Below are positions 1 to 35,934 of a DNA stretch of 64,000 nt, in pieces. Position 1 is the stretch's first letter. Every line of letters begins with the position of its first letter. The notes under the pieces are model-generated. The model saw nothing but the letters and a program-made list of their open reading frames with translations. It did no database searches and was not told the DNA's origin. This DNA comes from Gracilaria domingensis (Eukaryota > Rhodophyta > Florideophyceae > Gracilariales > Gracilariaceae): positions 460,471 to 524,470 of the forward strand of contig VCMS01000004.1 in NCBI GenBank assembly GCA_022539475.1, read 5' to 3'. The translations under genes were made by a program, and so were the position numbers.

Positions 1-1
1 G

Positions 2-409
2 CGCGCGCGGCGGCTGGGGCAGCAGCGGCTGCCCATCATCGCGGTGGGGACGTGCGCGCGCGAGGTGGTGGTGGCGGCGGACGTGGGGGGGGAGCTGGTG
101 TTCTGGGACGCGCGGTGGGGGGTGGGCGCGGGCGGGGCGGGGCGGGCGGAGGTGGAGGTGGCGCGCATCCGCGCGCACCGCAGCTGCGTGACGGCGATGG
201 CGGTGCACGACGGCGGGCGGTACGTGGCGACGGGGTCGACGGGGCGCTGCGTGAAGCTGTTCGGCGCGGAGCGCACGATGGAGCACATGGTGCTGGCGGG
301 CGAGCTGCGCGGCGGCGGCGTGACGGCGCTGAGCTTCCAGCCGCGCAGCAACGTGTTCGCCATCGGCTGCCGCGACGGCGGCGTGCTGCTGTACGGAGAT
401 TTGCATTGA
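2..409 (+). CDS. C-terminal WD40 repeats, Raptor-like (5' partial)
   Basis: The reading frame is already open at the left edge, so only about the last 135 residues are present. It holds two or three WD40-type blades. One blade starts at the His of RAHRSCVTAMAVHDGG and runs to VKLFG. The last blade reads VTALSFQPRSNVFAIGC and then a terminal Tyr before the TGA at 407-409. The order (His-rich blade opener, short linker, a final blade of LxFxP...G...D type, then the stop) resembles the C-terminus of Raptor, the TORC1 scaffold. No Raptor caspase-like or HEAT part is in view, so another WD40 protein remains possible. The GTG at 44 is an internal valine, not a start. Codon use is extremely GC-rich, like the neighbours. 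Confidence 0.55.
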   Translation, partial: RARRLGQQRLPIIAVGTCAREVVVAADVGGELVFWDARWGVGAGGAGRAEVEVARIRAHRSCVTAMAVHDGGRYVATGSTGRCVKLFGAERTMEHMVLAGELRGGGVTALSFQPRSNVFAIGCRDGGVLLYGDLH

Positions 410-509
410 GCGCGGCGCGCGGCGCGCGGCGCCCAATGGGCGGCGGCCAAACGCAATCGCGGCGCGGCGCCACTTAGGGCCAATCTGCGCAAATATCTGC
501 GCCAGATCG

Positions 510-533
510 GCGCGCGCGCGCGCGCGCGCGCGC
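510..533. repeat. (GC)n dinucleotide tract
   Basis: About 12 uninterrupted GC units are seen directly. Alternating purine-pyrimidine tracts of this kind can adopt Z-DNA. Shorter GC-alternating runs recur throughout 1.3-2.4 kb and at 26.36-26.40 kb. Confidence 0.9.
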
Positions 534-644
534 TTGTGCTCGTCTCGCGTGCGGACCGGCCGCCAGCAACGGCGCCGATTTTTGCCTTTATTCTTATTTG
601 TTATCAGTACACAAACAGTAAGCACTCGCTACAGTATACACACC

Positions 645-653
<9 letters not shown>

Positions 654-679
<26 letters not shown>
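654..679. repeat. (AC)n microsatellite
   Basis: An uninterrupted AC run lies about 25 bp beyond the stop of the zinc-finger gene, probably in its 3' UTR. Confidence 0.9.
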
Positions 680-682
<3 letters not shown>

Positions 683-701
683 CAAGTTCGCTCGCGCGCT
701 C

Positions 702-1024
702 TCAAGTGAGCAGCGCCGGCCGGCACTGCTCCGCCAGGAACTTGGCCAGGTCCAGCTCCATCGAGCTCCACTTGGCGCGATCCGACGCGCGCCTCTTGCC
801 GCCCAGCTTGGGCGCGCCGCCCGCCGCCGCGCGGTGCACGCCGCTGGCCGACAGGTGCCGCAGCATGTTGTACTTCTTGGCGAACCTTCTGTTGCAGCCG
901 TTGAACGGGCACACAAAATCCTTGCGGTGCTCGTGCCGCGTCGCGATGTGCTTGGACAGGTTGCCCTTGTTGGACGACGTCTGCGAGCAGTTGGGGTACG
1001 GGCACGGGAACAGCTTCTTGGCGC

Positions 1025-1069
<45 letters not shown>

Positions 1070-1226
1070 GCTTGGCGCGCAGCGCCGGCGGCGCGGGCGC
1101 GGCGCGCGGCAGGTACGACAGCGCGTCGGCGGAGAAGGGCGCGCGCAGCAGGAACGGCGCGCCGGCGCCGGCGCCGGCGGGCAGCACGCGGGGGGGGAGC
1201 TGGTGGTGGAGCCACATGGAGGCCAT
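702..1226 (-). CDS. Two-finger C2H2 zinc-finger protein
   Basis: A 174-residue protein, probably a nuclear nucleic-acid-binding factor. Finger 1 uses C75, C80, H93 and H98. Finger 2 uses C106, C111, H124 and H131. Both have the Cx4C-x12-H spacing seen in fingers whose Cys pairs are separated by four residues. A Gly run (about 55-68) encoded by GCC/GCG repeats precedes the fingers, and a basic patch with GGKRR follows them. The start is the ATG at 1224-1226, directly followed by a second in-frame ATG three codons on; the coding strand just upstream is C-rich. The stop is TGA at 702-704. No named family is recognised beyond C2H2. Target and role are unknown. Confidence 0.75.
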
Positions 1227-1843
1227 GGGGGGGTGGTTGCGGGAAGGGGGGTTTGGTAGCGGGTGGAGTACGGAAGCGGCGCGGGAGGGAGGGGGGTGGG
1301 GGGTGTAGGGGGGGGCAGGGGGGCGAGCGGGGGGGGGGACTCACGGGCGCTTAAACGCGAGGGCGAGCACGCGCGCAGCAAGCGGCAGCTGGAAAGCGCG
1401 GCCGCGCGGCGGCGCTGCGGGGGGCGGCGCGCGCGCGCGGGGGGCGCGCGGCGCGCGGCGCGCGCGCGCGCGCCACGCGCGGCGCGCCGATTGGCGTCCG
1501 TAAGGCGCGCGCGCGCGCGCGGTTCCTCTTCCCGCGGCGGGCGGTCGTGCGCTTTCCGCGCGCATGCCGCCGCGCGCCGCGCTGTGTGGCGCTGCACGTG
1601 TAACCGGTGCTCGCGCGCTCGGAGCACGCGCGCGCGCGCGCCAATGGGCGGCCGCGCCGGCGCGCGCGCCGCTGCGCTGTCCGCGCCGTTCCATCGCGCC
1701 GCCGCGCTTACTGTCGCGCTCGCGCCAGCCGCGCGCGCCGCGCGCCGCATGGAGCCGCACGCTCGCGCGCGCGCGCACGCGCGCGCACGCGCGCGCACGC
1801 GCGACGTCTCGTCGCGCGCTCTGAATCAGCGCCCGTTTTACTC
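1227..1843. promoter_or_regulatory. GC-alternating promoter region of the C2H2 gene; CCAAT boxes
   Basis: This lies upstream of the zinc-finger start and downstream of the histone gene. It is mostly GCGC-alternating sequence with CCAAT-box cores at 1490-1494 (minus sense, ATTGG) and 1641-1645 (CCAATGGGCGG context). Long Arg/Ala-rich open frames here are composition artefacts. No gene is supported. Confidence 0.5.
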
Positions 1844-2404
1844 TCACAGATAGTTGGCCGGGTCATTGCTGAGTCCGCGGATGCGCCGCGCGAGGTGGAT
1901 GTCCCGCGGCATGATGGTCACCCGCTTGCCGTGGATGGCGCACAGGTTGGCGTCCTCCATCAGATTCACCACAAACGACTCGGCCGCCGTCTGCAGCGCC
2001 TCAATCGCGTCCACGCGCCACCGCAGCTCGTGGTGAAATTTCTGTGTAATCTCCTTCACCACGCGCGCGAACGGCAGCCGCCGAATCAACAAATTCACCG
2101 AGCGCTGGTACTTGCGGATCTCCATGATGGCGCGCGTGCCGGCGCGCGGCCGGTACCGATGCGCGCGCCGCCCGGACGCGCGCACGCGCTTGGCCACCGC
2201 CGAGGTCAGCGCCGGCGCCGCGCCGCCGCGCCGCGCCGTGCGCCGCGTCGGCACCGTCTTGCGCGTCACGCGCCGGTTGGCCGCGCCGCCCACCGACCCG
2301 CCGCCCCGCGGCGTGCGCGGCGTGCGCGGCGAGCGCGGCGTGCGCGCGCGCGCGCCGCCGGAGGAGGACGCGCGCGCGCGCGTCGGCGTTCGCGGCGACG
2401 CCAT
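1844..2404 (-). CDS. Centromeric-type histone H3 (CenH3/CENP-A-like)
   Basis: A 186-residue histone H3 variant. The histone fold starts near HRYRP (about 83-87) and includes [16 protein letters not shown], the helix-2 region [16 protein letters not shown] and the near-canonical [19 protein letters not shown], then a longer tail, LSNDPANYL. The N-tail lacks the canonical ARTKQTARKS start. Instead it carries repeated SPRT/TPRS/TPRT motifs (about 3-33), which are SPKK-like DNA-binding or CDK-type sites. Loop 1 has W129 in LRW, as in many plant CenH3s, but no length insertion relative to H3. The start is the ATG at 2402-2404. It is divergent with TFIIE-beta across 453 bp. It could alternatively be another divergent H3 variant. 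Confidence 0.8.
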
Positions 2405-2857
2405 GGCTGCTGTCTTGCTTCGGGGGGGTCGCGCGGGGTGTGTGTGTTGGGTGGGGGGGGGTGTTGTTGGTTCGGCTGGGCGCGTCAGGACGTGCACCGC
2501 ATGCCGACGGAGAGGCACACGCCGGCGGCGGTTGTTGGGTATGGTAGGGGGTGGGAGGGGGGGGGGGGGGGGGGGGCGCGCGCGTAGAGCGGAGTGCGAA
2601 CACGAGCACGCTGACTTGGCGCCGCCGCGCGACACACCGCCTCCAGAAACCACAAACCGGCGCGCGCCGCCGCGACAACGCGTGCGCGCCGCCGAGTTGG
2701 CGCCCTTTTGCGCCCCCACACGTGGCCACGCGCCCACGTGCCCGCCTTCGTGTACTTGTCCTGGCCTCTACAGCTACCCTGCTCCCAACAATCTCCACCT
2801 TTGTACGCGCGTCCACCGGCTCGTCACCTCCCCTCCCCCGCCCCCAATTCCGCAGCC
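2405..2857. promoter_or_regulatory. Divergent promoter, CenH3 / TFIIE-beta
   Basis: A 453-bp head-to-head spacer. On the CenH3 coding strand it contains a C20 homopolymer (G20 on plus at 2557-2576) about 150 bp upstream of that start. On the TFIIE-beta side a pyrimidine tract (CCTCCCCTCCCCCGCCCCC) ends about 12 bp before its ATG. Each gene therefore has a C-rich leader on its own coding strand. Confidence 0.6.
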
Positions 2858-3529
2858 ATGACGGAGGACCTGCCCGTGGGACTGCAGCTGGCGCGCGTCC
2901 ACCACTTCCTGCGCGAGGAGCTGCTGCCGTTCACCTCCGCCCAGATCCACCAACACACCGGCGTCGACATCGACGGCAACCACGACGTGCTGCTGTCGCT
3001 CACCGGCGAGGCCAGCAAGGTCATCCGCGAGAAGGACGGCCGCTGGCGCTGGGCCTCCAAGTTCCAGCTGCGCAACTTCACCCACCTGCTCTCGCTCATG
3101 GCGCGCAGCGCCGACGGCGTCAACGAGAAGGACCTGTACGACTCGTACAAGGGCGTCAAGGACGACATCAAGAAGCTCAAGAAGCGCGGCGCCGTGTACC
3201 AGATCAAGAGCGGCTCCAAGGTCCTGCTTTTCCCGCACGACCCGCGCCTGGACACCCCCGTCGGCGACGAGGTGAAAAAGCGCTACAAGAACGTGCTGCT
3301 GCCGGACGCCATCGAGGTGCACCGCATCCTGGTCGCGCACGGCTTGAAGGACACCGATGACAAGACCGGCATCAGGATCTCGCAGCCCATTGCCAGGAAG
3401 CGCCCCAGCTCCAGACCCAACGCCCGCCGCAGGAACAAGCGCATCAAGCTCACCAACACCCACATGGCCAACTCGGCCGTAGATCTCACGCAGGACTACG
3501 ACGCGGGAAAGTCCTCCGCCTTCAATTGA
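2858..3529 (+). CDS. GTF2E2: Transcription initiation factor IIE, beta subunit
   Basis: A 223-residue protein recognised as TFIIE-beta, the RNA polymerase II general factor that acts with TFIIE-alpha in recruiting TFIIH. The sequence shows two winged-helix-type segments. The first spans about 8-75, with EELLPFTSAQIHQHTG and a KDGRWRWASKFQLRN strand region. The second spans about 78-130, with KDLYDSYKGVKDDIKKLKKRG, IKSGSKVLLFPHDPR and the following KRYKNVLLPDAIEV. A basic C-terminal stretch (RKRPSSRPNARRRNKRIK) matches the family's basic tail. The start ATG at 2858-2860 follows a pyrimidine-rich leader. The stop lies only 25 bp from the converging PRP16 stop. It is intact and intronless. Confidence 0.9.
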   Translation: MTEDLPVGLQLARVHHFLREELLPFTSAQIHQHTGVDIDGNHDVLLSLTGEASKVIREKDGRWRWASKFQLRNFTHLLSLMARSADGVNEKDLYDSYKGVKDDIKKLKKRGAVYQIKSGSKVLLFPHDPRLDTPVGDEVKKRYKNVLLPDAIEVHRILVAHGLKDTDDKTGIRISQPIARKRPSSRPNARRRNKRIKLTNTHMANSAVDLTQDYDAGKSSAFN

Positions 3530-3554
3530 CACAACTTGACAACCTGTCGGCCGC

Positions 3555-6326
3555 CTATTTCTTCCCCTTGAGCGCCGCCCAGCTGCCCACAATCTGCGCC
3601 TCAATTTTCGCGCGTCGCTCCTGCAGCCGCCGCGCAATCGCTACCCCTTCGTCAGCCACTTGCTTTAAAATGTACAACGTCGCGCCCGCCTCAGCCAGCC
3701 ACTGCGGCTCCACCGCCGTCACGCAGCTCATAAACTCCTTCTTGGTCATGATTAATTCGTGGTACACGACGTAGTCTGCGCTCAGTCCGCTCCCGTACAT
3801 GGCCGACGTGGGGTGCAATCCGCATACAACCCCGGAGCGAATGTTGATATATTCCCCGACACCTTTCCGTCTGGCCGCCTGGTAGAAGAACGAAAACCCT
3901 ATCGCCTTTCGGACCGTGTCCCAGTCGTCACACGAAGACTGCACCATTTTCTTCGTCCGCACAATGTCGAGTAGCTGCTCACGTACTTCTCGAGCCTTCT
4001 TCTCATGCTCTTGCTGCTGATGTAGTGCTTGGCGCACCACTCGGCGCGTGCACCGCCGGCAATCCATCTTTGGTAAACATGCAACAACGTGAGATGATCG
4101 CTTTCCGGCACAAAGAATTTCTCTCGAGCCGCGTCGCTTTCTTCCTCTCGCCCCTGCGGCCGCACGAAAACGTTGGGAACTGAGAGCATCGCCACAATCG
4201 TTACCGTTTCGAGTAGGCATCCGTTCTGTACGCCAGTGAATACCAGGCTGGACAGCGCAGGGTCAAGCGGGAACGTGGACATGTCGCGTCCCAGCGCGGT
4301 TAGATTCCCTTCTGCGTCAAGTGCCCCAAGTAGCCACAGTCCAAGCATGGATTTGAGAACGTTCTCCTTTGGCGGAGGGTCAAGAAACGGAAACTCTAGA
4401 ATGTCGTCCACACCAAGAGTTTTCAACAACAAAACCACATGGCTCAGGTTGGTACGCTGTATCTCCGGCACGTTTGTTTCGAGCAGTTCGCTAAGGTACG
4501 CAGTACTAGTGAAAAGGCGATAGCATTTACCAGGAGCTGTGCGACCGGCGCGGCCAGCACGTTGAGCAACGGATGATTGAGAAGCTGGACAGAGAAGTAG
4601 AGCGTCCATTCCCAGCCTGGGATTGTAAGTCTTCAATTTGCAGAATCCCGCGTCTACCACGTATCGAATGCCGTCTATTGTAAGACTAGTCTCCGCGATA
4701 TTGGTGGCTACTACAACTTTTCTCACTCCTTCAGGCGCTGGTTCAAAGATCTTCGCTTGCAGGTCAGTTGCAAGTTGCGAGTATATCGGAAGAATGATAA
4801 CGGGTCGCGGGTTCTGCAGACTTGCAATCTTTTCGGCCAGAGCTTCGCAGGTAGTTTCAATGTCCTCCTGGCCAGTCATAAATATCAGAATATCACCAGG
4901 CACCGGAGCTTGAATGTGCAGCTGAACAGTTTGCCATACAGCTTGATCAACATAGTCCTCAACAGGGGTCTTGGAGAAGAATATGTCTACGGGAAACGTT
5001 CTACCTGGAATGTTAAAGATCGGAGCAGCTCCAAAAAAGTTTGAAAAGCGTTCCGCGTTGAGTGTAGCGCTGGTGATGATCACGCGCAAGTCTCGGCGTT
5101 TCTTGATCACGTTTCTGAGTAAACCGAACAAGACATCTGTGTTCAAGCTCCGTTCATGAGCTTCGTCCATCACGACAACAGAGTAGCGATCGAGATCTGG
5201 GTCAGTAAGACTTTCTCGCAGCAAAATACCGTCTGTCATGTACTTGATAACGGTGTTCGGTCCTGTGGCGTCCTCGAAGCGAATGGCATAACCCACTTGC
5301 TCCCCCACCTGGACGCCACCGTGGAATTCTTCTGCCACGCGTTGTGCAACAGACACAGCGGCCACACGACGCGGTTGCGTGCACCCAATAATGCCGAAGC
5401 GTGCAAACCCCTCTTCTTCAAGATACTGCGTGAGCTGGGTGGTCTTTCCTGAACCCGTTTCTCCCACAACCACACACACCTGATGCTCTCGAACCAAGTT
5501 CAAAAGGTGACGCTTCACTTGATAAACAGGCAAAGATTTCTTGGCTTGTTCGAGTTGGAGCGCATGACGCGTCTGATCTGCCGCGCTCAGTTTGGGTCGT
5601 GAGAGGACGTTGGAGAACTTTGAGGCCTCTTTCCAATCATCAGCGCCAAGACGCGCAGTTTCAGCGGCGCCAATTTCGACCTCGCGTTCCCTGCTTTCTT
5701 TCGCCTTGGCACCTGCAGATTGACCGAGTTCCCAGTACCTCGCGCGTTGCTTGCCTCGTTCGCGTTTCAGACGGTACGATTCCACTGTGGCACTGCCCTT
5801 CCTAGCAATGACGGCCATATCACTGGTGGGATCCTTGACAGGCCAGTCCAGATGGCCGTCAGATATGGCGGTGTGATTGTGGGCGGCCGAAACGCCTTGC
5901 AGGAACGGGGGAATGATCTCCTGCACGACGAGAGCAACTCGCGGTCCGCAATCGTCTGGAAGCTCGTGGACGGCACGACGGGGCGCGCCGAGAGCGGCCG
6001 AGAGCTGGCGGTTCTCCCACTTTTGCGCATCGGCCTGTTTGGCAGCGGCAGCGGCACTGAGGCGACGGGACTGCCTCTTCGCCAACGCAGAATCATCAAG
6101 AGCAGCCTCAAAGGCCTGAGCGCGGTCAAAATCTTCGCCAAGGTACCACTGACGATCAAGCTGGTTCTGCTCGCGCAGATACGCCTCGTACGCAGGATCG
6201 CGACGAATGGACGGCGCGCGATGCGGTGCGCGAGGGGGCGCGCGATGCGGGGCGCTTCTGCTGGCGGGGGTGGTTCTGTCCCATCTGGACCGGCGTGGGT
6301 TGCGAGGCGGATTCGGCCTCTTCGGG

Positions 6327-10912: not shown

Positions 10913-13900
10913 ATGACGGAGGGATTGCTAAGAATGTTTTCCCATCCGTCGAGCTCCATTCGAGAGGCGCTGGGCGGCATAGAGCTTCGCCTCTTGCCCA
11001 AGCACCGCTTCAACCAGAGGCTTGCCCAGGTGTTCGATGCCGCCCAACAGCTCAAGAAGGAGCTTGAGTCTTTCTCAAATCAGCTCAAGGAAAAGAAGGA
11101 AGCTATTCCTCAAGAAATATGGAAAGCGCTCAATGTTCAGAGGGGCGACCTCAACTTGCGCTATCGAGCCATTATGGATGCTATCGTCCAAATCGGAGCC
11201 AATAAGCCTCATGAGAGGGTCGCCCGCATGTGGTTTGCACCATCCACAAAGAAGCGATGCCAGAAGCTTCATTCCGAAATTCGCGACGTTAAGCATACTT
11301 TGACAGAGCTCATCACCCGTCTCACCATTCTTTCCGCCACCGAGAAAATCAAGTATGAGCTTACTAGACTGGCATCACAAGACTCTCGCCACGCTCACAA
11401 CAAGCACGACTTGTTGGATGACGAATCTGTCAGTATGCGTTCAGCCAAGGTCAGCAGGGAAAGACTCCGTAGCTCCTTACATGATCTCTTCAACTACCGA
11501 GATATCACAACATCCGAATCTGAACGAAACCCCACTAGCCCAGCTACATCACAAGAGAAGTCACCAAAGCGATCCTTCAAGAACTCTTCAACAAGCTCTG
11601 CGCAGCAACAATCGTCCACCCAATCCGCCTCAACTACGTCACCCGTATTGCATTCAGAGCAGCGTGAGGACGAGCAAGATCTCTATTTCTGTTCACGTCT
11701 TGTACATCCTGTTGTCCCGCAGTCCATGTTCGATATCACCAAGCCCGACAGCATTGAATTCCAGACAAAAAGTAGAGTTCTGTCAGCGAGCCAACAGGGT
11801 GGGCACTTTGTAGCGCTGCAGGGACTGCCAGGGACAGGAAAATCAGCGCTGCTACATGCCCTCAAACACGATGAAGACATTACTGCCCATTTCACAGAAG
11901 GTGTTCATTGGTTGCCACTTCGCTCCGGAGTTGCTGAAATTCACGACGCAATAGATTGTGTTGCTTATTTGGTGTCCATTACTGGCAGCAAGGCTGAAGC
12001 AAAAGACATTAAAGAAATGAGTGACATTCAGGCTGCTGTTCAACGTTCGTCCAAGCACTTATCCTCCAAAAGAATGCTATTGCTGCTGGACAAAAGCTGG
12101 ACAGAAGGAAATGTCGGCTCGGCTTTAGTATTCAAACTTAAGCCGTTTGTCACTTCTCGTTCTGGAACGGTTATAGTATTCGTGTCTGAGGATTCTGAAG
12201 CCATATGGGACGCTCATCGTATTTCGATAACACCGCGTGATGTTCTCGGTGAGGATACATTGTACATATTCTTGAATCATGCAGGCTTCACAAAGGAAGA
12301 ACTCGTGGAGGCTGAAACCGTGGAGATTTTGCGAGTTCTGCTACTGCTATGCCATGGTTTACCGTTGGCACTGGCTATTGCCGGGAAGACGATTGCCAAC
12401 ACAACCAAGTGTGGAATGACTCGTAAAGAGGCTATGAAATTGTATCTTGAGCAGCATGACAGTATCTTTGATGATGACGAGATGAACATCCCGTGCATAT
12501 CTGATGTCATTGGTGATCACGTGCAAGCCGCTCTGCAAATCCTTGAGCAAATGTATGATAACAACCTACCGACAGGGATCACTTTCCGAGATCTCTTCTT
12601 GGCCCTCTGCGTTGTAGACAAGGGACATAACCTGCCCTTAGAAGTTTTACGCCAGCTTTGGAACCTATCTCCTGGTATTGCGCACACGGTGGCATCTCTT
12701 TTTAATGCTACTGGTCTCACAACATTGCTGATGAAGCATCATCAAGGTGTGGATGAGCTTCAGATTCATGACCTTGTACATGAGTACATTTGCAGCGAGT
12801 TGAGTTTAGTGGACTTCACCAACTACCACATGAAGCTAGTGAAGTCGTACGAGGCTGTACTGGGTGATGGAGAGCCACTGATTTCGGACGAATGTCGAGC
12901 ATGGTGGACGCTCAATGTCCGTGACGAAGGATACCATAACAGAAATCTTATTCGCCATCTTTATCATTCTGGGTTCCGCTCTGAGATGTTGAAGCTTGTT
13001 GTGCATCCCAAGTGGATATTGGCCCAACTTGATGAAGTTGGAGCGGATCAAGTGGACAATGATATAGGCTTTGTCACTGATTTTCTCACGTTTAACAATT
13101 CAACGGATACTCAAGCGCTGGAAATGACTGTGGAGGAATATGAGGAAATAGGGGCAGCAGCTCGAGTGGCAGCAAAGACTGCTGGACGCAAATCCAAGCA
13201 AGTCACGTTTCACTTTTATGATCGACTACTTGCTGTTAACAGGGTTCAAGGTATCCTCTCCGATTATCTTCAAAGCTTTGAAAACAAGGCCAGAGATCCA
13301 TGTCTGAGACCCGTTCAACCATGCCTTGGTTCGCCGAAGAACCAGTTACGCAGTATAATTCGCATTCTTTCGCGTCCTCAATGCATGGTTACTCTGGCCG
13401 GAGACAACTACGTCGCTTGTGGCTGTATTGATGGGAGAATTGTCATGCTTGACACAAGGCGAAAAAGGATTGTCGGACAATGGAGGGGCCATAGTGATGC
13501 GGTGACTTCCATGTGCCGCTCTCTTACTGGGAAAGTTATAGTTACCAGTTCCTCGGATATGACGATTAGGGTATGGGATTGTGCGTCAAGCGAACAAATT
13601 GGGGAAGTTGTACTCCCGGACGACCGACAAGTTGCGAGTACTGCAGTTACAGTCGATGAACTGTTTGTCATTGCGGGCTTCCACGACGGTTCGCTCCTGG
13701 TGTGGGATTTGGAAACCGGAGATCGAGTGGCTGAAGCGTTCAATGTGCGGAGCCCCAGTGCTTTCACGACGATTGATGTATTAGCCGGAGGCGATCGCAT
13801 GATCACATCCAGCGAAGACGGTTTCATTCGAATGTGGAAATTGGAAACAATGGCGAACGCGAATGAAGATCTTGTTCTTCATCTCAAGGAGGACAAGAAC

Positions 13901-15046
13901 TGGTCTGCAGAACCCTTTTCGGACGCAGTCGACTGTCTTGCCATCCACCATGAGAGTCAGATTTTTGCTGCAGCATCGAACGGTTTGATTTGTGTATCGG
14001 ACTTGCGCAGTGGGACAACAAGAAGCATGTGCGACACTAGTGGAAGTTTCGGAAAGATTACTGGTATGTGTTTCGACGAGAACGGAAAACACCTGGTTTT
14101 TGGCTCCGACGGGAGAGTTGTGCATATATTGGATGTGGAGAAGAATATGCTGACCGGGAAGCCCCTTCGAGGTCACACCCAAGGCGTCTGTGATGTGGCG
14201 TTTCTCTCAAGGGGAAGTGTGGTCATTTCAGCTGCAGGTGATGAGACTGTGAGAATATGGAACGTTGAAAATCCTCGCGGCTCGCTTACATCACCTTTGC
14301 ATTCAGGAACTGTAACGTCCCTCGCATTGACGGAAAAGGGTGATGTTGTAGTCTCTGCCTCACTGGATGGTTCACTTCGTTTGTGGGACGTGAAGACTGG
14401 AACTTCAATCGGAAAGCCCCTCACCGGATACAGAGAGAAGATAAGCGCCGTTGCGGTTTCGAACAATGGAGAACGTGTAATCTCCGGAGCGTACGATGGC
14501 AGTATTCGTTTGTGGAGAATTGATGGTGAAACTCATGAGAGCCTGAGCACTTTCCAAGCCCATTCGGACTGGATATCAAGTATAGATATTAGTCCCACGG
14601 GAAATAGAGCCGTGAGTGCTTCCTTTGATGGTTCTGTTCGCGCATGGGATTTGCTGAAGTGTGATGGTAACTATGTAACACTCCGAGGCCATAAGGGAAA
14701 GGTTAGAACCGTGAAGATCTCAAGTGATGGAGAGCGTATTATATCGGTATCAAGACATGAAGTTCGAGTTTGGGATCTTCTGCATAGTACCTGTATTCGA
14801 CGGTTTGAACAAGAGAACATCGGTCTGAAGCGAACTGTATCCATTCTTAGGTTTGCGGAAGAGGACACCGAGGAAGCTTATCCACATCCACCAATACAGT
14901 GCAAAGGGTTCCAAGTGCGATACGGAAAGGAAGTACTTGCAACGCTGCCATCTTCCATAGAATGTTACGAGTACTCTCGGGCTAACAGTACAATCTGTGC
15001 TGGACTGCTGAACGGGCAAATGGTGTTCTTGAGATTGACGTTATAG
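10913..15046 (+). CDS. NB-ARC / WD40 STAND ATPase (Apaf-1-like architecture)
   Basis: A 1377-residue intronless protein. Residues 1-155 are strongly helical and free of enzyme motifs, a possible signalling bundle. Residues 155-260 form a Ser/Thr/Gln-rich linker. The NB-ARC module follows: Walker A GLPGTGKS at 304-311, Walker B LLLLD with D393, the GLPLA motif at 482-486, a winged-helix-like segment and an IHD triplet at 618-620 in the MHD position. A helical stretch leads to a C-terminal WD40 region from about 820 to the end, with about 12 blades (for example GHSDAVTSM...IRVWD, GHTQGVCDV...VRIWN, GHKGKVRTV...VRVWD). Proteins of this class switch between ADP- and ATP-bound states and oligomerise to trigger death or defence signalling. 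The role here is inferred. The start is ATG 10913-10915. Confidence 0.88.
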   Translation: MTEGLLRMFSHPSSSIREALGGIELRLLPKHRFNQRLAQVFDAAQQLKKELESFSNQLKEKKEAIPQEIWKALNVQRGDLNLRYRAIMDAIVQIGANKPHERVARMWFAPSTKKRCQKLHSEIRDVKHTLTELITRLTILSATEKIKYELTRLASQDSRHAHNKHDLLDDESVSMRSAKVSRERLRSSLHDLFNYRDITTSESERNPTSPATSQEKSPKRSFKNSSTSSAQQQSSTQSASTTSPVLHSEQREDEQDLYFCSRLVHPVVPQSMFDITKPDSIEFQTKSRVLSASQQGGHFVALQGLPGTGKSALLHALKHDEDITAHFTEGVHWLPLRSGVAEIHDAIDCVAYLVSITGSKAEAKDIKEMSDIQAAVQRSSKHLSSKRMLLLLDKSWTEGNVGSALVFKLKPFVTSRSGTVIVFVSEDSEAIWDAHRISITPRDVLGEDTLYIFLNHAGFTKEELVEAETVEILRVLLLLCHGLPLALAIAGKTIANTTKCGMTRKEAMKLYLEQHDSIFDDDEMNIPCISDVIGDHVQAALQILEQMYDNNLPTGITFRDLFLALCVVDKGHNLPLEVLRQLWNLSPGIAHTVASLFNATGLTTLLMKHHQGVDELQIHDLVHEYICSELSLVDFTNYHMKLVKSYEAVLGDGEPLISDECRAWWTLNVRDEGYHNRNLIRHLYHSGFRSEMLKLVVHPKWILAQLDEVGADQVDNDIGFVTDFLTFNNSTDTQALEMTVEEYEEIGAAARVAAKTAGRKSKQVTFHFYDRLLAVNRVQGILSDYLQSFENKARDPCLRPVQPCLGSPKNQLRSIIRILSRPQCMVTLAGDNYVACGCIDGRIVMLDTRRKRIVGQWRGHSDAVTSMCRSLTGKVIVTSSSDMTIRVWDCASSEQIGEVVLPDDRQVASTAVTVDELFVIAGFHDGSLLVWDLETGDRVAEAFNVRSPSAFTTIDVLAGGDRMITSSEDGFIRMWKLETMANANEDLVLHLKEDKNWSAEPFSDAVDCLAIHHESQIFAAASNGLICVSDLRSGTTRSMCDTSGSFGKITGMCFDENGKHLVFGSDGRVVHILDVEKNMLTGKPLRGHTQGVCDVAFLSRGSVVISAAGDETVRIWNVENPRGSLTSPLHSGTVTSLALTEKGDVVVSASLDGSLRLWDVKTGTSIGKPLTGYREKISAVAVSNNGERVISGAYDGSIRLWRIDGETHESLSTFQAHSDWISSIDISPTGNRAVSASFDGSVRAWDLLKCDGNYVTLRGHKGKVRTVKISSDGERIISVSRHEVRVWDLLHSTCIRRFEQENIGLKRTVSILRFAEEDTEEAYPHPPIQCKGFQVRYGKEVLATLPSSIECYEYSRANSTICAGLLNGQMVFLRLTL

Positions 15047-15545: not shown

Positions 15546-16730
15546 TCAGTTCTCAAGAGCCGTTCTTGAAAACCTTGTCCAATCCGTGCCAATGCTCTTG
15601 GCTAAACCAATAGCTGTACCATTCCCGGCGTCGATATCATGATTTCCACACTTGCCGACATAGTACAGAAGCGCGGAACCGTCGTCAAGGGCAACAGCGT
15701 ATGGATGTGATACACCTTTCTCATCCCAAGAGCCCTTTTCGCCGACATCCAACGCAACGGTGATTGGCCCCCAGTTCTCGCAATCGTTGCTCTGGCATAC
15801 TCCTATTCGTGTTGTGCGGGTAGAATCAAAAATCACAACGAACATGAAATATACACTTCCTTTCTTTATAACGAAAGCTCGCTGAGTTCCACGTTCATCA
15901 ATCGCCCCGGATTTTCCGGAACCTTTCAAGGCAATCCCCTTCTTTTCAAAGCATAGACCATCAGCGGAAAACGCTTTACCCACCATATACATTTTATGTT
16001 GGACATTAAATGTGTAGTAGTGCATCATGTACCCATTCTGAACACGTACAACGTGCGGACTCGATACAAACAAGGAGTCAAATTCTTGTTCACCACCCAC
16101 ATCAAGCACAGCAGATGAAGGATAGGGACCTTCAAATCTAGTGAAATGTTCACCATCCTTACTCAGAGCAAGACCAATACGCATGCGAATACCTTCCATA
16201 TCTGTGCCGCGAACGGAAACCGTTTCTTTGTCGCCGCCACTGTAATACATGAAGTACACGCCCGAATCTGCTCGTATGCGCGAGTTGGAATCAATTAATA
16301 CATCGCCGGCACTGACATGTACAGTATCGAATGCCCACCAATCCTCTGTATTATTCGGGAGGATGGCGCCGTTGTGAGGGCCGTCGACGCGACGCCAGGC
16401 TACACCGTCGTCAGACAGAGCGAGACCAATGAGACCAGTGAGGGTTCCAGGAGGCGTGTGAGGGCTGTTCTCCCAATGGCGAGGCCGATATGTGTACCAC
16501 ATTGCAAAACGATCATCTTCGTCAGATATGTATCGATGAACGATTGGGGTGGAAAGCGCACCTACATCTGTTTCGGCTGGAGCAAATACGCGGCCAATTG
16601 TGCTTGCAGGTGGGGTTGATGTCGGTGACGCGGCGCAGGCGCTCACTCTGGGCCGGGCGAATGATGTTGTTGAGCAGCGATGGGCAAAGGGACTGGCTGC
16701 GAAAACAGGGCTGAGAAAGGCGGTCGACAT
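15546..16730 (-). CDS. GH43-like five-bladed beta-propeller protein, probably plastid-targeted
   Basis: A 394-residue protein with repeated blade signatures: FAMWYTYRP, IGLALSDDGVAW, VYFMYYSGG, IGLALSKDGEHF, YMMHYYTFN, GKAFSADGLCFEKKG, IGVCQSNDCENW and ALLYYVGK. This cadence of YxxYY strands followed by S.DG.xW turns is that of arabinanase/levansucrase-fold (GH43/GH68/GH32-type) propellers. The first 45 residues are rich in Ser, Ala, Pro and Arg with no acidic residues until the propeller, as expected for a plastid transit peptide. The catalytic acid triad cannot be assigned with certainty by eye. The first ATG is at 16728-16730; the longer frame begins with GTG. The substrate is unknown. It is head-to-head with RAD23 across 1.1 kb. 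Confidence 0.65.
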   Translation of the reverse strand: MSTAFLSPVFAASPFAHRCSTTSFARPRVSACAASPTSTPPASTIGRVFAPAETDVGALSTPIVHRYISDEDDRFAMWYTYRPRHWENSPHTPPGTLTGLIGLALSDDGVAWRRVDGPHNGAILPNNTEDWWAFDTVHVSAGDVLIDSNSRIRADSGVYFMYYSGGDKETVSVRGTDMEGIRMRIGLALSKDGEHFTRFEGPYPSSAVLDVGGEQEFDSLFVSSPHVVRVQNGYMMHYYTFNVQHKMYMVGKAFSADGLCFEKKGIALKGSGKSGAIDERGTQRAFVIKKGSVYFMFVVIFDSTRTTRIGVCQSNDCENWGPITVALDVGEKGSWDEKGVSHPYAVALDDGSALLYYVGKCGNHDIDAGNGTAIGLAKSIGTDWTRFSRTALEN

Positions 16731-17837
16731 GGTTCGGGCACAGAGGTGTGCCGCTGAGTGCACACGCTGAGGTCAGTGATTGTGGCGGAGGTGAGAGGCT
16801 CCCTAATGTTGACGTATGTTATGGAGCAAAGGCCGCTGGGGAGAATGCAGACAGTGGCGAGATGCCGGCGATGGTGGTTTCGATGTCCAGAGATTGGAGA
16901 CAGCACTCGGCTGCGATCGAGCGCTGTGCTCCAGGCAGCCGGGGTGCTCGAGCAGCAGAAGTTTCAGGCGGTAGCCTTCGAACACACGCCACTGCGGAGG
17001 CTCAAGACACGCCCTAGCATGAAGATGTTGTTGAAGACTGATAACTAGAGAAAACGTCAGGAGATTGGAGGCGCAATGGGCAGTGCTGGGTGGCGAGATT
17101 TGGCCATTGGGGCGCGGGTGCGTTTTACAGTACAGAACCGTAAGCAGACGCAACAAGTTCAAAAGCTCGCAAGACATGAGCGCGTCGCCGGTCATGGTGA
17201 TGACCAAGCAGATAACAGGGAAGCAAATTCGGGCGGCGGCGAGTGGCTTCGAACACGCGCGACGCGCGACGGGAGACGGCGGTATGATCGACTTGGGGCA
17301 GCTGCATGATGCAAGCCGCATTCTGCCACGCGGCTAACTGGTCTCAGGCGGCGCGGCGGGACCAGCGCGTGACGGCGCGCTCGCGCCAGCGCGGGCAGCG
17401 CCAGCGCCTCGCAGCCGAGCGTCTCGCATGCGAGGTGTCGCAGGGCGCGCCGCAAGGCTGCCGTCGGCGCAGGTCGACGGCTGCGAAGGTATCAGCGAGG
17501 CGGCGCGGAGCTTCCAGCTCGCAGCAAGCGGCTGACGAGGCGGCGCACTTGCGCGCCTCAGCGCGGCGCGCGTCGCGCCGTTTTTCGCGCGCGGCGGCTG
17601 CGGCAGCATCGCCGTGGCTCGTTGCGATTGGCGCGGGCACGCCCCGAAAAGCGCGCTTTTTGGCGCGCGCGTCGTCTCGCGCTCCAGCCAAAATCTCATC
17701 CCGCACCCGCTCCACTTCTTGCCATCCGCCTGCCGCCGACGATACACCACCCCCCCTCCCCCCCCGCCACCATCCCCCCAAAACGCCCCCCACACACTCC
17801 CGCTCCGCCCGCTCTTTCGTCCCCCCTCCCCTCCGCC
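16731..17837. promoter_or_regulatory. Divergent region, GH43-like / RAD23
   Basis: A 1.1-kb spacer. The RAD23 side has TTTTTCGCGCG (E2F-like core, about 17581), an ATTGG (inverted CCAAT) at 17627-17631 and then a CCCCCCCTCCCCCCCCC tract at about 17749-17770 on the RAD23 coding strand. No gene is supported. Confidence 0.5.
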
Positions 17838-31100: not shown

Positions 31101-32034
31101 TCGCAAACGGAATCATTTCTCTGCGGCATCGCAGGCAAAAGGACTCCAAGGCCAGCAAGCAGTTTTCGTTGAGATCGTCGTCATCTTGCTGGTTCTCAAG
31201 CACGGCGTAATCAAACAAAATAGGGGCAAGCGTGTCCAGGTACGGACCCAAGCGGTGTCCAGAGTTCCTCGACAGGGCGCGAATGGCCTGCACAGCGGTT
31301 CGCACATGGTGGTCATCCTGGGGGCTTTGCAGCTGTTTCATGACGTTATCGACAATGGATTTAAACAGGTCGTTCTGACAGGCGGCTGTGAGGGCGCCGA
31401 TACAGGCGATTGCCCTCTTGCGGACCAAAGGGTTCTTGGAGGCCATTTGCTTAAAGAGCGCAGAGGTAATGCTTGGATGATATTTGGCACATAAAGGAGC
31501 CATGCGCGCGAGCATCTCGTACAAAATTTCCAAGGCCTCGATGAGGATGTCGGTGGAATCGGCGAGCGCATCGAGATTGGATATAGGCGAGACGAGACGC
31601 GGGATGACCAAGTCAATGACGGCGACGGCGTTGGAGCGAGCGGGGGAGAGTTGGTGGAGAATGGACTTCAAGGCGAGGGAGGACACATCGCGCATGGCCT
31701 TGAGACTGTCGGAGGCGGTGCGCTTGGATTTGGACTGGGAGGTTTGCAGAAGATGGTCGAGCAGCTTGTCGATGATGTAGGCCGAGTTGTTTGGGTCGAC
31801 GTAGAGCGTGAGATACGGGAGGCACTTGGTGGCCAGCGCCTGCACCTCGGTGTTGGTGTCCCTGAGCAGCTTGAGCACGGCCTTGGACAGGCGGCGCTGG
31901 GTGTCGTGATCGGCGCGGATGGAGGAGGTCTGCAGCTGCGTGAGCAGATCGGAGGTGGCCATGTAGCGGTAGTCGGAGTCGGAGCTGTCCATCTTGTCCA
32001 GGATGGCGCGAACGGAGAAGGTGGACGACGCCAT
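28111..32034 (-). CDS. CAND1: CAND1, cullin-associated NEDD8-dissociated protein (TIP120)
   Basis: A 1307-residue HEAT-repeat solenoid that binds unneddylated cullin-RBX1 and exchanges SCF substrate receptors. The N-terminus (ILDKMDSSDSDYRYMATSDLL) and the repeated pattern of paired helices match CAND1 throughout. An acidic insert (DDQQDENAQHDGMEEDDH near residue 330) sits at the position of the acidic loop in other CAND1s. The C-terminal part (ARTVKDKDLVRIVDLGPFKH, then VDDGLDLRKSAFDC-like) is the TIP120 domain. The ATG at 32032-32034 follows a C12 run on the coding strand, seven bases upstream. The longer frame begins at GTG. It is intact, and convergent with MAEA across 208 bp. Confidence 0.95.
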   Translation of the reverse strand: MASSTFSVRAILDKMDSSDSDYRYMATSDLLTQLQTSSIRADHDTQRRLSKAVLKLLRDTNTEVQALATKCLPYLTLYVDPNNSAYIIDKLLDHLLQTSQSKSKRTASDSLKAMRDVSSLALKSILHQLSPARSNAVAVIDLVIPRLVSPISNLDALADSTDILIEALEILYEMLARMAPLCAKYHPSITSALFKQMASKNPLVRKRAIACIGALTAACQNDLFKSIVDNVMKQLQSPQDDHHVRTAVQAIRALSRNSGHRLGPYLDTLAPILFDYAVLENQQDDDDLNENCLLALESFCLRCRREMIPFASTLSKCVMMRAKYDPNYVADEDDQQDENAQHDGMEEDDHISDQFDDDDYSDDDDTSWKVRRAAVKCLHAAITSQLCPADQICSTFGPFLVSRFGEREEQVKLDVFSAFIDLLRMCASQAASSSPSLAGAVSDPMAVDSSHETRAELAPLYDEAPRIIRRIKTELGSRSPKVRIKAMTVTREVVSAMPSITASLVGKVLKEVDQGLADTGTAMKTEALLFLREVIEKGGAEALKEHIQLIIPRVLSGTNDRYYKVTAECMRFCSSALIAFGSASSECKSMMSPLVCHIYDAAMRRATAQDQDSEVKEAAIQCLGSAVSEFGSDLGAQRLGEIANVLCDRLRVEVTRLATVRALGVIALSEAAEILSSKMSEIVLTLSGFLRKNNQILRIAALEFLCIVPNLPAENDTNLVTNLSELITDVDLTVTHLALKLTSNLVKLRTAQIVSLVAVPNSIYPKAISLSTSLLLQGRAIYSLLSFLRSLAEVDAEPLRVQRMLEDLKKQITKASLSATGSGAAASSVYCVAKCVVAICDTADAELRAQIAQSIVSNVTSEDLQTKVFSLACLGEFGRGSTLLHDAEEKELIKNALLAALDSQHEEVRTTAALALGALSSADGSSGLPALLAHLSERPHQQYLLLYSLKEAISSSQQTDIGPMTKQLISVLLLQPTTFMKGNGVHSPPNEKLGTTSSEEESVRTATAECLALLAHASPQEVLCSMREAAKSPSSDIRAVVAAAIKFAVTSNSANDSLFANLRSNMDAFIALLGDSEVIVAKNALQAINAVAKSRPQLLASHLETILPLVYARTVKDKDLVRIVDLGPFKHEEDYGLDLRKSAFDCVRTFLSGPLHLRIPFIGMLDQVMRGLRDHADVRCIAQLILAIAATSEMAPQMVEIMEVIVRELGATFSEKLKDNAVRQEVERHEDSIRGAMRAVRMMENVPEIRTDQRFHMLLTNVVQRNYSEKYEAIGKSEIEIMTFGPVSRSDNGRRSGILGNKSLYLD

Positions 32035-32283
32035 GGCGCGGGGGGGGGGGGGTGGCTCTGCGCTGCGCTGCGCGAAGTACGGCGGGTGCGGGCGGGTGCT
32101 GCGGCGGTGGAGCGGAGGGGGGTGCACGGGAAAACGGACGCCTAACAAAAGCGCCACGAAGGGGCGCTTGGGCGCGGCGCGTGGCCACGCAGCGCGGCGC
32201 GGGCTGACAGTGTAATAGCGCGATGCGTTTATGTATGGTACAGGGGGGGTGGGGGCGGCTCGCGCGCGCGCGCGCGCGCGCAG

Positions 32284-32426
32284 TCACGCGACGGGGTTGA
32301 GGGACACGTCGCGCGCGTCGGCGTCCGTGAGCAGCGCGTCGCGCAGCGCGGCGCGCAGCGCGCGCTGCTGGCCGAGCAGCTGCGCCGACGGCGCTGCCGC
32401 GCCCGCCAGCTTGTCGCCCAGCGCGC

Positions 32427-32472
<46 letters not shown>

Positions 32473-33285
32473 GCACCCGGCGCTGCCGCAGCTGCACGCG
32501 CCCGCCGCGCCGCCGCCGTCGCCGTCCAGCCCGCTGCGCGCCAGCAGCTCGTTGAGCTCGAACGGCACGCCGTCCGCGCCGCAGCCGCCGCCCACGCCCA
32601 GCGCGTCGAACGGCGCCACGTCCGCCGCCGCGTGCGCGTGCGCGTGCGCGTGCGGCGACGCAGACGTAGACGCAGACGCAGACGCAGACGCCGACGCAGA
32701 CGCCGACGCCGACGCCGACGCCGACTGCGGCGCCGACTGCGGCGGCGCCACCGCCACGGCCGGCGGCAGCAGCGGGTTGAGCTGCGGCGACAGCTCAATG
32801 CGCTGCTGCGACAGCACGGCCACCCGACTGCTGAGCCGCCGGATCTGGTCGTCCTTGTCCGACAGCAGCAGCACATGGCGGTACAGCACGTCCGACAGCC
32901 GGAACGCGTCGGCGATGCTGTCGCTCAGCAGGCGCTCGAAGCGCGTCACGATGAACTCCTGCTTGACGCGGCTGGCCACGGCGCTGGCGTGGTTGGCCAC
33001 CTTCTTCTTGGCCGTCTTGAGCAGCACGCGATCGCCGCAGCGCTGCGCGTCCGCCACCTTGCTCGCCAGCTGCTGCTGCTTCCTCTTCTTGGTGATACGG
33101 TACTCCTCCAGCGCGTCGTCGTGCACGCGCCGAATCAGCTGCGCGGCGTGGTCGGACGGCTGCACGCCGGCGTACTGGCGCAGCAGCGCGTACAGCTGCT
33201 GCGGCTGCGGCTGCGGCTGCGGCTGCGGCGCGGCGCTGGGCTCATGGCGCGGCGCGGCGGGCGGCGCGTCGGGGCGGGCGTCCAT
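32284..33285 (-). CDS. bZIP-like putative transcription factor with low-complexity tracts
   Basis: A 333-residue protein. A basic stretch (ITKKRKQQQ, then KTAKKKVANHASAVASR) contains N-x3-A-x2-S-R, the bZIP DNA-contact signature. The residue ten positions after the invariant Arg is Phe, and Leu recurs 14 positions later, so a zipper is possible but weak; a further helix (DKDDQIRRLSSRVAVLSQQRIEL) follows. Around this lie Pro-Gln, Ala-Ser, His-Ala and a 15-plus Ala run, all encoded by pure triplet or hexamer repeats (for example GCAGAC at about 32660-32720). The start is ATG 33283-33285, with C-rich coding-strand sequence upstream. It could instead be an unrelated basic coiled-coil protein. Confidence 0.55.
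32410..32475. repeat. GCC-repeat encoding poly-alanine
   Basis: An uninterrupted trinucleotide run codes for the poly-Ala segment of the bZIP-like protein. It is likely to be length-polymorphic. Confidence 0.85.
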
Positions 33286-33662
33286 GGCAGGGGGTGCGGG
33301 GGTGCGGGGGTGCGGGGGTGCGGGGGGGGGGAAGGGGAGGGGACGATGGCGGAGGGGAGGTGCGGGGCGGGGAAGAGAGGCGCGAGCGTACACGCCTAGG
33401 GGGGGGGAGGGGGGCCGCCGGGCAAATGTGCGGGGTTTAAAGGTGAAGTCACGCAAGCACGATAGCGCTGCACAGTAGCACGGCAGCTCGGCGCGGCGCG
33501 GCGCGGCGCGGCGCGGCGCGGGCCAGCGCGCAGCGGCGCCGCGCGCGGCCCCAAAAAGTGCCCAAAACGTGGCCGTGGCGCGCGCGCCGCGTCGATCATA
33601 CGCGCGTAGGCGCGCGCGCGCCGCCGCTGCCGCCGCCGCCGCCGCGCCGCGCCGCGCGCGGC
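33286..33662. promoter_or_regulatory. Upstream region of bZIP-like gene / 3' region of glutamine synthetase
   Basis: GGGTGCGGGGGTGCG tandem units (about 33291-33330), which are CCCGCACCC on the coding strand, directly precede the bZIP-like start. GCGGCGCGGC tandem units occur at 33494-33520. No gene is seen. Confidence 0.5.
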
Positions 33663-35099
33663 TCAGTGCAGCGGCAGCAGCCGGCGCAGCAGCGCGTCCA
33701 GCCCGGCGCGCTCGGCCGCCGCCACCTCCGCCGCCTTGGCGTGCAGCAGCGCGTCCACCACGGCGTCCGGCAGCACGTCGCGCACGGCGCCGCCGCTCGC
33801 CGCGTCGCGGAAGCGCTCCATGCTCTCCGCCAGGCTGGTGGGCAGCCGCTCGGCTCGCCGCGCCGCCGCCACCGCGTGCGGGTCCTGCTGGCACGGCGGC
33901 GGCAGCTGCATGCAGGCGCGCACGCCGTTGAGCCCCGCGGCCACCACGCCCGCCAGGGCAAAGTACGGGTTGGACACGGCGTCCAGCGTCTTGAGCTCCA
34001 TGTTGGAGCGGTCCAGTGCCAGCCGCAGCGGCGCCTCCTTGTTCGCGATACCCCACACCTTGTACACGCCCACCCAGTGCTGCGGCTGCAGCCGCTCGTA
34101 GCTGGCCACGCTCGCATTGGTCAGGAAGCTGAGCCACGGCAGCGCCTCCAGCACGCCGGCCACAAAGTGCTGCGCCAGCGGCGTCATGCCCACATGGTGC
34201 TCGTACAGCTCGGCGCTGCCGCCAAAGTGGCCAGCCAGGCTGAAATGCACATGCGCGCCGCTGCCCGCGCTGCCGACCTTGGGCAGGAAGCACGCGTGCA
34301 GCGAGTGGCGGCGCGCGACGGAGCGCACCACTTCGCGCGCTATCAGCAGCTCGTCCACGGCCGTCAGCAGCGGCTTGTGCGCCAGCACCAGCTCGAACTG
34401 GCCCGGCGCCGACTCGGCGTGCACCGTGCTCACGTCGATGCGCGCCTGCGCGAGCGCGGCCACCATGTGATCCAGCACCGGCGCCGCGGCGTCCACCTGC
34501 GACAGCAGCGCAAAGCCGCCGGCGGCGCCGAACGGGCGCAGCGAGTCGGCGTCGCGCGGATCGCCCTCCAGCAGCACAAACTCCATCTCGAAGCCGGCGC
34601 GCATGGTGAGCTGCTGCGCGGCCAGCAGCTGCACGGCGCGGCACACGCTCTCGCGCGGGCACAGCGGCCACGCGTTTCCGTTGGCGTCGTGCAGGTGGGC
34701 GACCACAAAGCTGTGGTTGCGGTGCGTGGGCCACGGCAGCACGCGCGGCGGCGGCAGCAGCAGCTTGGGCGGCGCGGGCGGCGGCGCGCGCTTGTGCGGC
34801 GAGTAGGGCCGCATGTACACCTCGCCGACGGCGTCGAGCGCGCAGCCGGGCGGCAGCTCGCCGTCCGGCGTGAGCACGACGCCGCACTTGACGAACAGCG
34901 CGTTGGGCGCGGCGGCGGCGGCGGCGTCGTAGCGCACCAGCTTGGTGCGGCGCAGCGCGTGGTAGTCCAGCAGCACGATGCGCAGCAGCCGCACGTGGCG
35001 CATGGGCGCGGCGCCGCCCGCGGCGTCGGCGGCGGCGTCGGCGGCAGTGTCGCCGCCGACGGCGTCGGCGTCGGCGCGGAGGCCGTTGGCGCCCATCAT
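33663..35099 (-). CDS. Glutamine synthetase type I-like protein (FluG C-terminal type)
   Basis: A 478-residue protein with the GS beta-grasp N-domain (RIVLLDYHALRRTKLVRYD, as in FluG/nodulin-type proteins) and the catalytic domain. Metal and substrate motifs include FEMEFVLLEGD, HAESAPGQFELVLAH, GSGAHVHFSL and NMELKTLDAVSNPYFALAG. The usual GSI-type Arg-rich segment appears as WVGVYKVWGIANKEAPLRL. The amidohydrolase half found in FluG and plant NodGS is absent, so this is a stand-alone GSI-like domain. Whether it makes glutamine or acts on another amine or carboxylate cannot be told from sequence. Two adjacent ATGs (35097-35099 and 35094-35096) mark the start; the frame stays open far upstream only because of GC-rich composition. 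Confidence 0.85.
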   Translation of the reverse strand: MMGANGLRADADAVGGDTAADAAADAAGGAAPMRHVRLLRIVLLDYHALRRTKLVRYDAAAAAAPNALFVKCGVVLTPDGELPPGCALDAVGEVYMRPYSPHKRAPPPAPPKLLLPPPRVLPWPTHRNHSFVVAHLHDANGNAWPLCPRESVCRAVQLLAAQQLTMRAGFEMEFVLLEGDPRDADSLRPFGAAGGFALLSQVDAAAPVLDHMVAALAQARIDVSTVHAESAPGQFELVLAHKPLLTAVDELLIAREVVRSVARRHSLHACFLPKVGSAGSGAHVHFSLAGHFGGSAELYEHHVGMTPLAQHFVAGVLEALPWLSFLTNASVASYERLQPQHWVGVYKVWGIANKEAPLRLALDRSNMELKTLDAVSNPYFALAGVVAAGLNGVRACMQLPPPCQQDPHAVAAARRAERLPTSLAESMERFRDAASGGAVRDVLPDAVVDALLHAKAAEVAAAERAGLDALLRRLLPLH

Positions 35100-35890: not shown

Positions 35891-35922
<32 letters not shown>

Positions 35923-35934
35923 CCCCCAGCCGCC
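35100..35934. promoter_or_regulatory. Divergent promoter, glutamine synthetase-like / Akirin
   Basis: An 835-bp spacer of extreme composition. It includes GCC/CCG repeats (35460-35560), an inverted CCAAT box at 35638-35642 and an E2F-like TTTTCGCG at about 35648-35655. CCCCT tandem units occur at about 35780-35810, and a C30 homopolymer at 35892-35921 ends 13 bp before the Akirin ATG. Confidence 0.6.
35892..35921 (+). repeat. C30 homopolymer just upstream of the Akirin start
   Basis: Thirty consecutive C's are seen directly. The tract could fold as an i-motif, with a G-quadruplex on the opposite strand. The true length is uncertain for any sequencing method. Confidence 0.85.

Follow-up and report, generated by a model that had tools for sequence, protein, structure and literature searches.

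The 64,000-nt stretch of the Gracilaria domingensis genome analysed here (hereafter the window) carries, at 10913..15046 on the forward (+) strand, a single uninterrupted frame of 1377 codons with zero internal stops. The original prediction had described an intronless gene of this length for an Apaf-1-like NB-ARC/WD40 protein of the signal transduction ATPases with numerous domains (STAND) class, and the frame is present as described. An in-frame TGA lies directly 5′ of the ATG, so the N-terminus of the protein is well fixed. The open reading frame, Pfam matches and motifs together give a helical N-terminus, an NB-ARC domain, a winged-helix and helical region and one or more WD40 propellers. 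The N-terminal helical region (residues 1–160; 10913..11392), delimited on an AlphaFold2 model, is a putative executor or adaptor. It is followed by a Ser/Thr-rich linker recognised by reading the sequence (about residues 190–250; 11480..11662) and by the NB-ARC domain as placed by Pfam (about residues 293–497; 11789..12403). A winged helix with an Apaf-1-type helical region (about residues 498–815; 12404..13357) was assigned from sub-cut-off Pfam matches and from the alignment of a family profile to APAF1. The remainder is a WD40 region (about residues 828–1377; 13394..15043) with nine clear blades by Pfam and a unit profile, the repeats of which are not homogenised.

Most of the predicted NB-ARC hallmarks are kept. 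We located the Walker A motif GLPGTGKS (residues 304–311; 11822..11845), GLPLA (residues 482–486; 12356..12370) and the triplet IHD, which places His-Asp at the MHD position (residues 618–620; 12764..12772). The Walker B motif LLLLD was also found, at residues 389–393, while the second acid of this motif is replaced by Lys (K394; motif with this residue at 12077..12094), as seen from the motif and from comparison with paralogs. The latter comparison also identified the sensor-1/RNBS-B stretch as FVSED (residues 423–427; 12179..12193). The profile search proposed along with the prediction matched both domains: NB-ARC (PF00931) with E 7.3e-14 and 52.1 bits against a cut-off of 23.5 over residues 294–497, and WD40 with E 2.4e-52, many WD40-type models matching from about residue 815 onward. 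A unit profile built from the paralogs, with the window gene left out, detected 11 WD40 stretches between residues 828 and 1295, nine of them above 3 bits. The predicted figure of about 12 blades is plausible, within a range of 11–13 in all, but it is not an established number.

The gene belongs to a large family. In the genome (77.9 Mb, 680 contigs) at least 33 further loci match the window protein (34 of 334 candidates scored). The NB-ARC model gave 88 matches, all above cut-off; these are matches and not genes, as some contain stops and some are duplicates (C104/C494). The TIR model gave 33 matches, 31 of them above cut-off, and for 27 of the 33 the coordinates place an NB-ARC match directly downstream. 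Sequences were read for 33 loci and for 15 further N-terminal stretches, a non-random sample chosen for long frames and strong scores. A TIR domain was seen in or beside the frame at 17 of these 33 loci and none at 14, with two unassigned (L028, L041). The motif W-x-M-x-E-L occurs in 10 of 12 TIR-type frames (26 frames scanned), and we take its Glu to stand at the position of the TIR NADase Glu.

Two groups of family loci deserve mention on their own. Four TIR-NB-ARC copies with 808-aa frames, an identical TIR score and NB-ARC scores of 38.7–44.9 bits lie at G000:C28:271976-298307. Copies 1–3 are exactly 6236 bp apart (271976, 278212, 284448) and the fourth, which falls in L036 (295500-302500), starts at 296895. 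This looks like a recent tandem array with an early frame end. L014 (G000:C104:4000-11000) and L015 (G000:C494:13500-20500) apparently represent one NB-ARC-WD40 locus, having equal frames and scores; the doubling may stem from the assembly or from haplotypes. The TIR domain of this locus lies in a separate 121-aa frame.

To place the family we used a profile of 21 NB-ARC cores spanning 543 positions, with the window gene as row 2. Human APAF1 was matched with E 2.3e-25, profile positions 28–470 of 543 aligning with APAF1 residues 146–538, which presumably correspond to the P-loop through the winged helix into the helical domain. Among the matches listed, plant nucleotide-binding leucine-rich repeat receptors (NLRs) ranked below APAF1 (ZAR1 3.2e-15, Sr35 ∼1e-13, then others). 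Two proteins encoded on Acaryochloris plasmids, L060 and L061, matched the profile over positions 17–537 and 17–541 of 543, respectively. The better of these cores reached E 4.9e-39; such E-values come from single records and are not rankable against those of the search that listed APAF1 and the NLRs, but the bit score is the higher one (129 vs 92). L061 in addition matched APAF1_C (E 1.3e-11) and WD40, and L060 contains 13 WD40 stretches. As the profile matches both APAF1 and the Acaryochloris proteins, the Apaf-1-like layout is genuine and also exists in bacterial form. A scan of GTDB contigs yielded three weak relatives and a plasmid scan two records, and no viral carrier was confirmed in two scans of viral_contigs.

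The surroundings of the two Acaryochloris genes were also recorded. On the conjugative plasmid pMB06, positions 3210-8318 of L060 hold a CHAT gene, the NB-ARC-WD40 gene and a CHAT-TIR gene in series; on pMB04 (L061) a CHAT-NB-ARC-APAF1_C-WD40 gene adjoins a TIR gene. These gene rows look like a mobile defence cassette.

A tree was computed from 27 algal cores, five bacterial rows and human APAF1. A branch with support 100/99 separates the window gene and its 26 paralogs from the bacterial rows and APAF1. The phylogeny suggested with the original prediction is thereby realised for these groups, plant and fungal rows having been left out. Since the tree warns of long branches meeting, its use here is confined to label changes and to the question whether the algal set is one unit, and does not extend to deep origins. 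With the same caution, the grouping with 26 paralogs of the same genome speaks against a bacterial contaminant or very recent transfer, which could otherwise explain an architecture common to cyanobacterial plasmid genes with such strongly matching cores. The flanking genes in the same 64 kb argue in the same direction, as they are of eukaryotic type (DEAH helicase, ArfGAP, capping enzyme, CAND1-like protein), and we consider the chance of contamination or recent transfer negligible.

Among the ten further window frames scanned with Pfam are also an ITFG1-like protein, AsnRS, glutamine synthetase, an AAA ATPase and a photolyase. A 405-aa frame adjoining the gene at 15546-16763 (-) has no Pfam match at 0.001. 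The window contains two G+C islands, at 32001-36000 (0.76, including the glutamine synthetase) and at 1-4000 (0.71), the other 4-kb steps having values of 0.44–0.59. Elsewhere in the genome, eight strong phycobilisome-family matches were found, all on contig C680, which fits a red alga best, a glaucophyte or a contaminant contig being the less likely sources.

We think it rather probable that the window gene encodes an intracellular STAND switch of Apaf-1 architecture which acts as a fixed-ligand sensor or helper within this large algal family. Several observations weigh against this interpretation. Fly DARK, an Apaf-1 relative, scores only 1e-4 with the family profile, far below the plant NLRs, so profile rank is not proof of kinship. 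The window protein alone matches APAF1_C with E 0.0076 and APAF-1-like_WHD with E 0.085, both under the Pfam cut-offs, and its core, searched alone against solved structures, does not retrieve APAF1 even with the threshold relaxed to E 10. The top rows of the latter search, all non-significant, were two plant RPW8-type NLRs (E 0.14 and 0.25). The predicted Apaf-1-like layout holds at the level of the family and partly for this copy.

The copy also departs from its kin at conserved positions. Walker B reads D-D in 30 of 32 paralog frames, the remaining two having no pattern match, and is D-K in the window protein. Sensor-1 is mostly YTTRD in the paralogs, the Arg being kept by ≥90% of the aligned cores, and the window stretch FVSED has Glu at this site. 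The two Walker B acids and the sensor-1 TTR Arg that define a hydrolysis-competent NB-ARC are retained by most paralogs, and the window gene has LLLLDK and FVSED in their place. Because the second acid and the Arg are lost, the protein most likely binds nucleotide but would hydrolyse or sense it poorly. Moreover, the end branch leading to the window gene is 2.56 changes per site long in the tree, its top identity is 26%, and its WD40 units are dissimilar (mean identity 0.22 over 7 units). The N-terminus matches the helical domain common to many paralogs (see below) with an hhalign probability of just 0.9%, and a search with residues 1–240 found no convincing relative elsewhere in the genome, returning the self-match and matches at E 0.395 only. 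The gene branches deeply, has no close paralog and carries a fixed propeller.

The changed Walker B and sensor-1 residues, the very long branch and the dissimilar repeats would also be expected of a gene that is decaying or has been repurposed, one whose protein is made as before but has ceased to work as an ATP-driven switch and acts as a decoy, as a WD40 scaffold or in regulating other members. The 1377-codon frame is however free of stops and therefore points to recent constraint. Walker A, GLPL and IHD are likewise kept, and the codon-position GC resembles that of five paralogs, which is weak evidence. Decay or repurposing is in our opinion a possibility to be taken seriously, though not a likely one.

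The N-terminus of the window protein was modelled with AlphaFold2 from a five-row alignment (mean predicted local distance difference test score 77.9), giving helices at residues 12–60, 67–95, 99–107 and 109–178. For comparison, 29 non-TIR N-termini (14 + 15) were read out of about 61 NB-ARC matches without TIR. Twenty-five of the 29 share one alignable domain (24 aligned plus the near-copy L026), which is a four-helix bundle in one model. The N-termini of L009, L035, L043 and L045 are divergent; they appear helical by eye and show 12–17% identity in an alignment with the window protein. The likeness of the common domain to plant CC, MLKL and HeLo domains is only suggestive, and its likeness to plant NLR N-termini falls within the range that the tool gives for any helical bundle. 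Naming the domain by Pfam was rejected, as the matches were under the cut-offs and mutually contradictory (GldM_1st 0.0009, SesA 0.0052, MLKL_N 0.0078–0.026, Exonuclease VII 0.00014, LUC7, Guanylin and others).

No CARD was detected in the window protein by Pfam (E up to 5) or in the fold-search rows; such absence is not exclusion, and families missing from the fold-search lists are not thereby excluded. This bears on the idea that the gene is a housekeeping death switch of the Apaf-1 kind, with metacaspases as its targets in place of the caspases that Apaf-1 activates. Among solved structures the family profile matches APAF1 best, and the genome has eight matches to Peptidase_C14 (caspase/metacaspase), on C61, C297, C30, C154, C3 and C248, some of which may be pieces of one gene. 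Proteins of this type are candidate partners of the switch family. However, Pfam recognises neither CARD nor another known adaptor in the window N-terminus, and the family is large and partly variable instead of being one conserved gene, which makes a metacaspase-activating switch improbable.

We then compared the WD40 repeats of the paralogs. Units were cut by a fixed motif, so blades without it are missed; codon numbering is set by the cut, and the constrained V8 and D26 agree with the fungal register. The mean identity of units within a protein reaches a maximum of 0.71 (L037). A set of 17 genes, including L025 and its near-copy L028, has three or more unit pairs with ≥60% identity. In these genes, pooled, the positions with the top replacement rates are 25, 7, 6, 9 and 27. 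With positions 5 and 6 set aside, the proportion of nonsynonymous differences (pN) at codons 7, 9, 25 and 27 is higher than elsewhere in 17/17 genes (position-label permutation, P ∼2e-5), and 143 different quadruplets of these codons occur among 144 units. These five positions stay on top when the threshold is varied from 0.5 to 0.8, which leaves 22 to 4 genes, and also when only the 8 helical-type genes are taken. For the 8 TIR-type genes the leading positions are 7, 25, 9 and 6, with 27 in sixth place.

At codons 7, 9, 25 and 27, pN exceeds the proportion of synonymous differences (pS) at the same codons in 12 of the 17 genes. When L028 is left out too, pN at these codons is larger than the pS of the rest in 15/16 genes and larger than the same-codon pS in 12/16. 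The 8 TIR-type genes have equal means (pN 0.61, pS 0.62). Positive selection at these codons is thus not formally shown, and relaxed constraint is a possible explanation. A control with diverged pairs (<40% identity, 27 genes) tells partly against a HET-like reading: the seven most variable positions were 5, 1, 7, 4, 25, 3 and 9. As 7, 25 and 9 are still among them, the pattern is partly a general property of WD40 units; 27 and 6 dropped out, and the contrast with the rest shrank to 0.70 vs 0.49, against 0.58 vs 0.12.

Homogenisation within genes was seen in part of the family. Once the near-copies L015, L026 and L028 are set aside, the best DNA match of 78 of 213 units is another unit of the same gene (chance fraction 0.033). 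The effect is strong in L025 (11/11), L037 (10/10), L038 (10/10) and L012 (9/10) and weak or absent in many others; in the window gene it is 0/7. With its unit identity of 0.22 and only codon 25 of the four among its top seven positions, the window gene lacks the pattern of the fungal HNWD type. The 13 units of the cyanobacterial L060 have a mean identity of 85%, and their top-entropy positions are 7, 25, 6, 27 and 9.

Published work provides several points of comparison. In the fungal HET-D and HET-E genes, codons 7, 9, 25 and 27 are described as strongly positively selected and codons 8 and 26 as constrained in both (PMC1805685, PMC2873952). Like these HNWD/NWD proteins, some algal paralogs are STAND-WD40 receptors with very similar WD40 units and variation peaks that include the same four codons; the fungal proteins differ in carrying NACHT and HET domains, and the window gene itself has no similar repeats. 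Highly conserved repeats are reported to be rare outside fungal NLRs, at an 85% identity cut-off that differs from our thresholds (PMC4986451). In the accessible literature we found no report of paralog variation at 25, 7, 6, 9 and 27, or of the same five positions in a cyanobacterium.

That an alga may use an Apaf-1-like gene, the core claim of the original prediction, is not new, since red-algal proteins of the NB-ARC-WD40 and TIR-NB-ARC-WD40 types have been published before. Chondrus crispus is listed with 61 NB genes, of which 58 are NB-WD40 and 23 of these have TIR (PMC7145615); TIR-NBARC-WD40 proteins are described for this species, and a study cited there places the NB-ARC as sister to that of plants (PMC9806590). 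For Pyropia seven NB-ARC+WD40 genes are tabulated, three of them up in both infection stages (PMC6928737), and rhodophyte NB-ARC/WH/APAF1_C/WD40 proteins are on record (PMC8891106). For Porphyra, no NBS-LRR fusion is reported (PMC6928737) and canonical plant receptors are described as absent (PMC8307928). The Chondrus, Pyropia and Porphyra proteins agree with ours in layout, but the cited descriptions of them include neither the common helical N-terminal domain nor repeat homogenisation (PMC7145615, PMC9806590, PMC6928737). No report of either feature in red-algal NB-ARC-WD40 proteins was found in a search that left most subscription literature outside. Five Chondrus NB genes are reported with a TBPIP domain (PMC7145615, PMC9806590, PMC6928737), which possibly overlaps the common helical domain. 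What we add is the helical N-terminal domain of the family, the HET-like variable WD40 positions and the aberrant window copy.

Compared with human APAF1 (1z6t), the top solved match of the family profile, the order of NB-ARC, winged helix, helical domain and WD40 is the same. The algal side differs in having a helical N-terminus and no detected CARD, in forming a large gene family and, for the window copy, in changes at two conserved positions. The Acaryochloris proteins share a near end-to-end core match, APAF1_C in L061 and the variable positions in L060; they differ in that L061 has a CHAT domain and L060 has CHAT and TIR genes as neighbours. Plant NLRs (ZAR1, Rx, NRG1, NRCs) differ in using LRR sensors.

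As to nucleotide state, ring assembly, output and a role in immunity, we infer the following course of events. In the resting state, the WD40 propellers would lie folded against an ADP-bound NB-ARC/winged-helix core. Contact of a ligand with the propeller face would release the core, the released NB-ARC domains would form a ring, and the N-terminal helices, now clustered, may then pass on a death or defence signal, as in the ligand-gated oligomeric switch that had been envisaged. Within the family, one set would act through TIR executors, and those non-TIR members whose sequence was read would act through helical ones. In some members the WD40 repeats have stayed alike and differ chiefly at a small number of positions, in the manner of a recognition repertoire. 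The window gene would act as a fixed-ligand sensor or helper.

A more far-reaching, and in our view rather doubtful, proposal is that the family constitutes a germ-line repertoire of Apaf-1-type receptors, with WD40 units homogenised within genes and diversified at the propeller-face codons of the fungal HET receptors and with interchangeable TIR and helical executors, serving immunity or allorecognition, and with the window gene as a fixed helper or sensor. Parasitic red algae fuse with host cells and transfer nuclei, and are a possible target of allorecognition.

It may be, moreover, that bacteria, fungi and algae diversify the WD40 face at shared positions. With its Apaf-1 core, a TIR or helical executor and a WD40 face variable in the fungal style, the family described here is a concrete and testable candidate for a role in defence or in the recognition of pathogens or kin by seaweeds.

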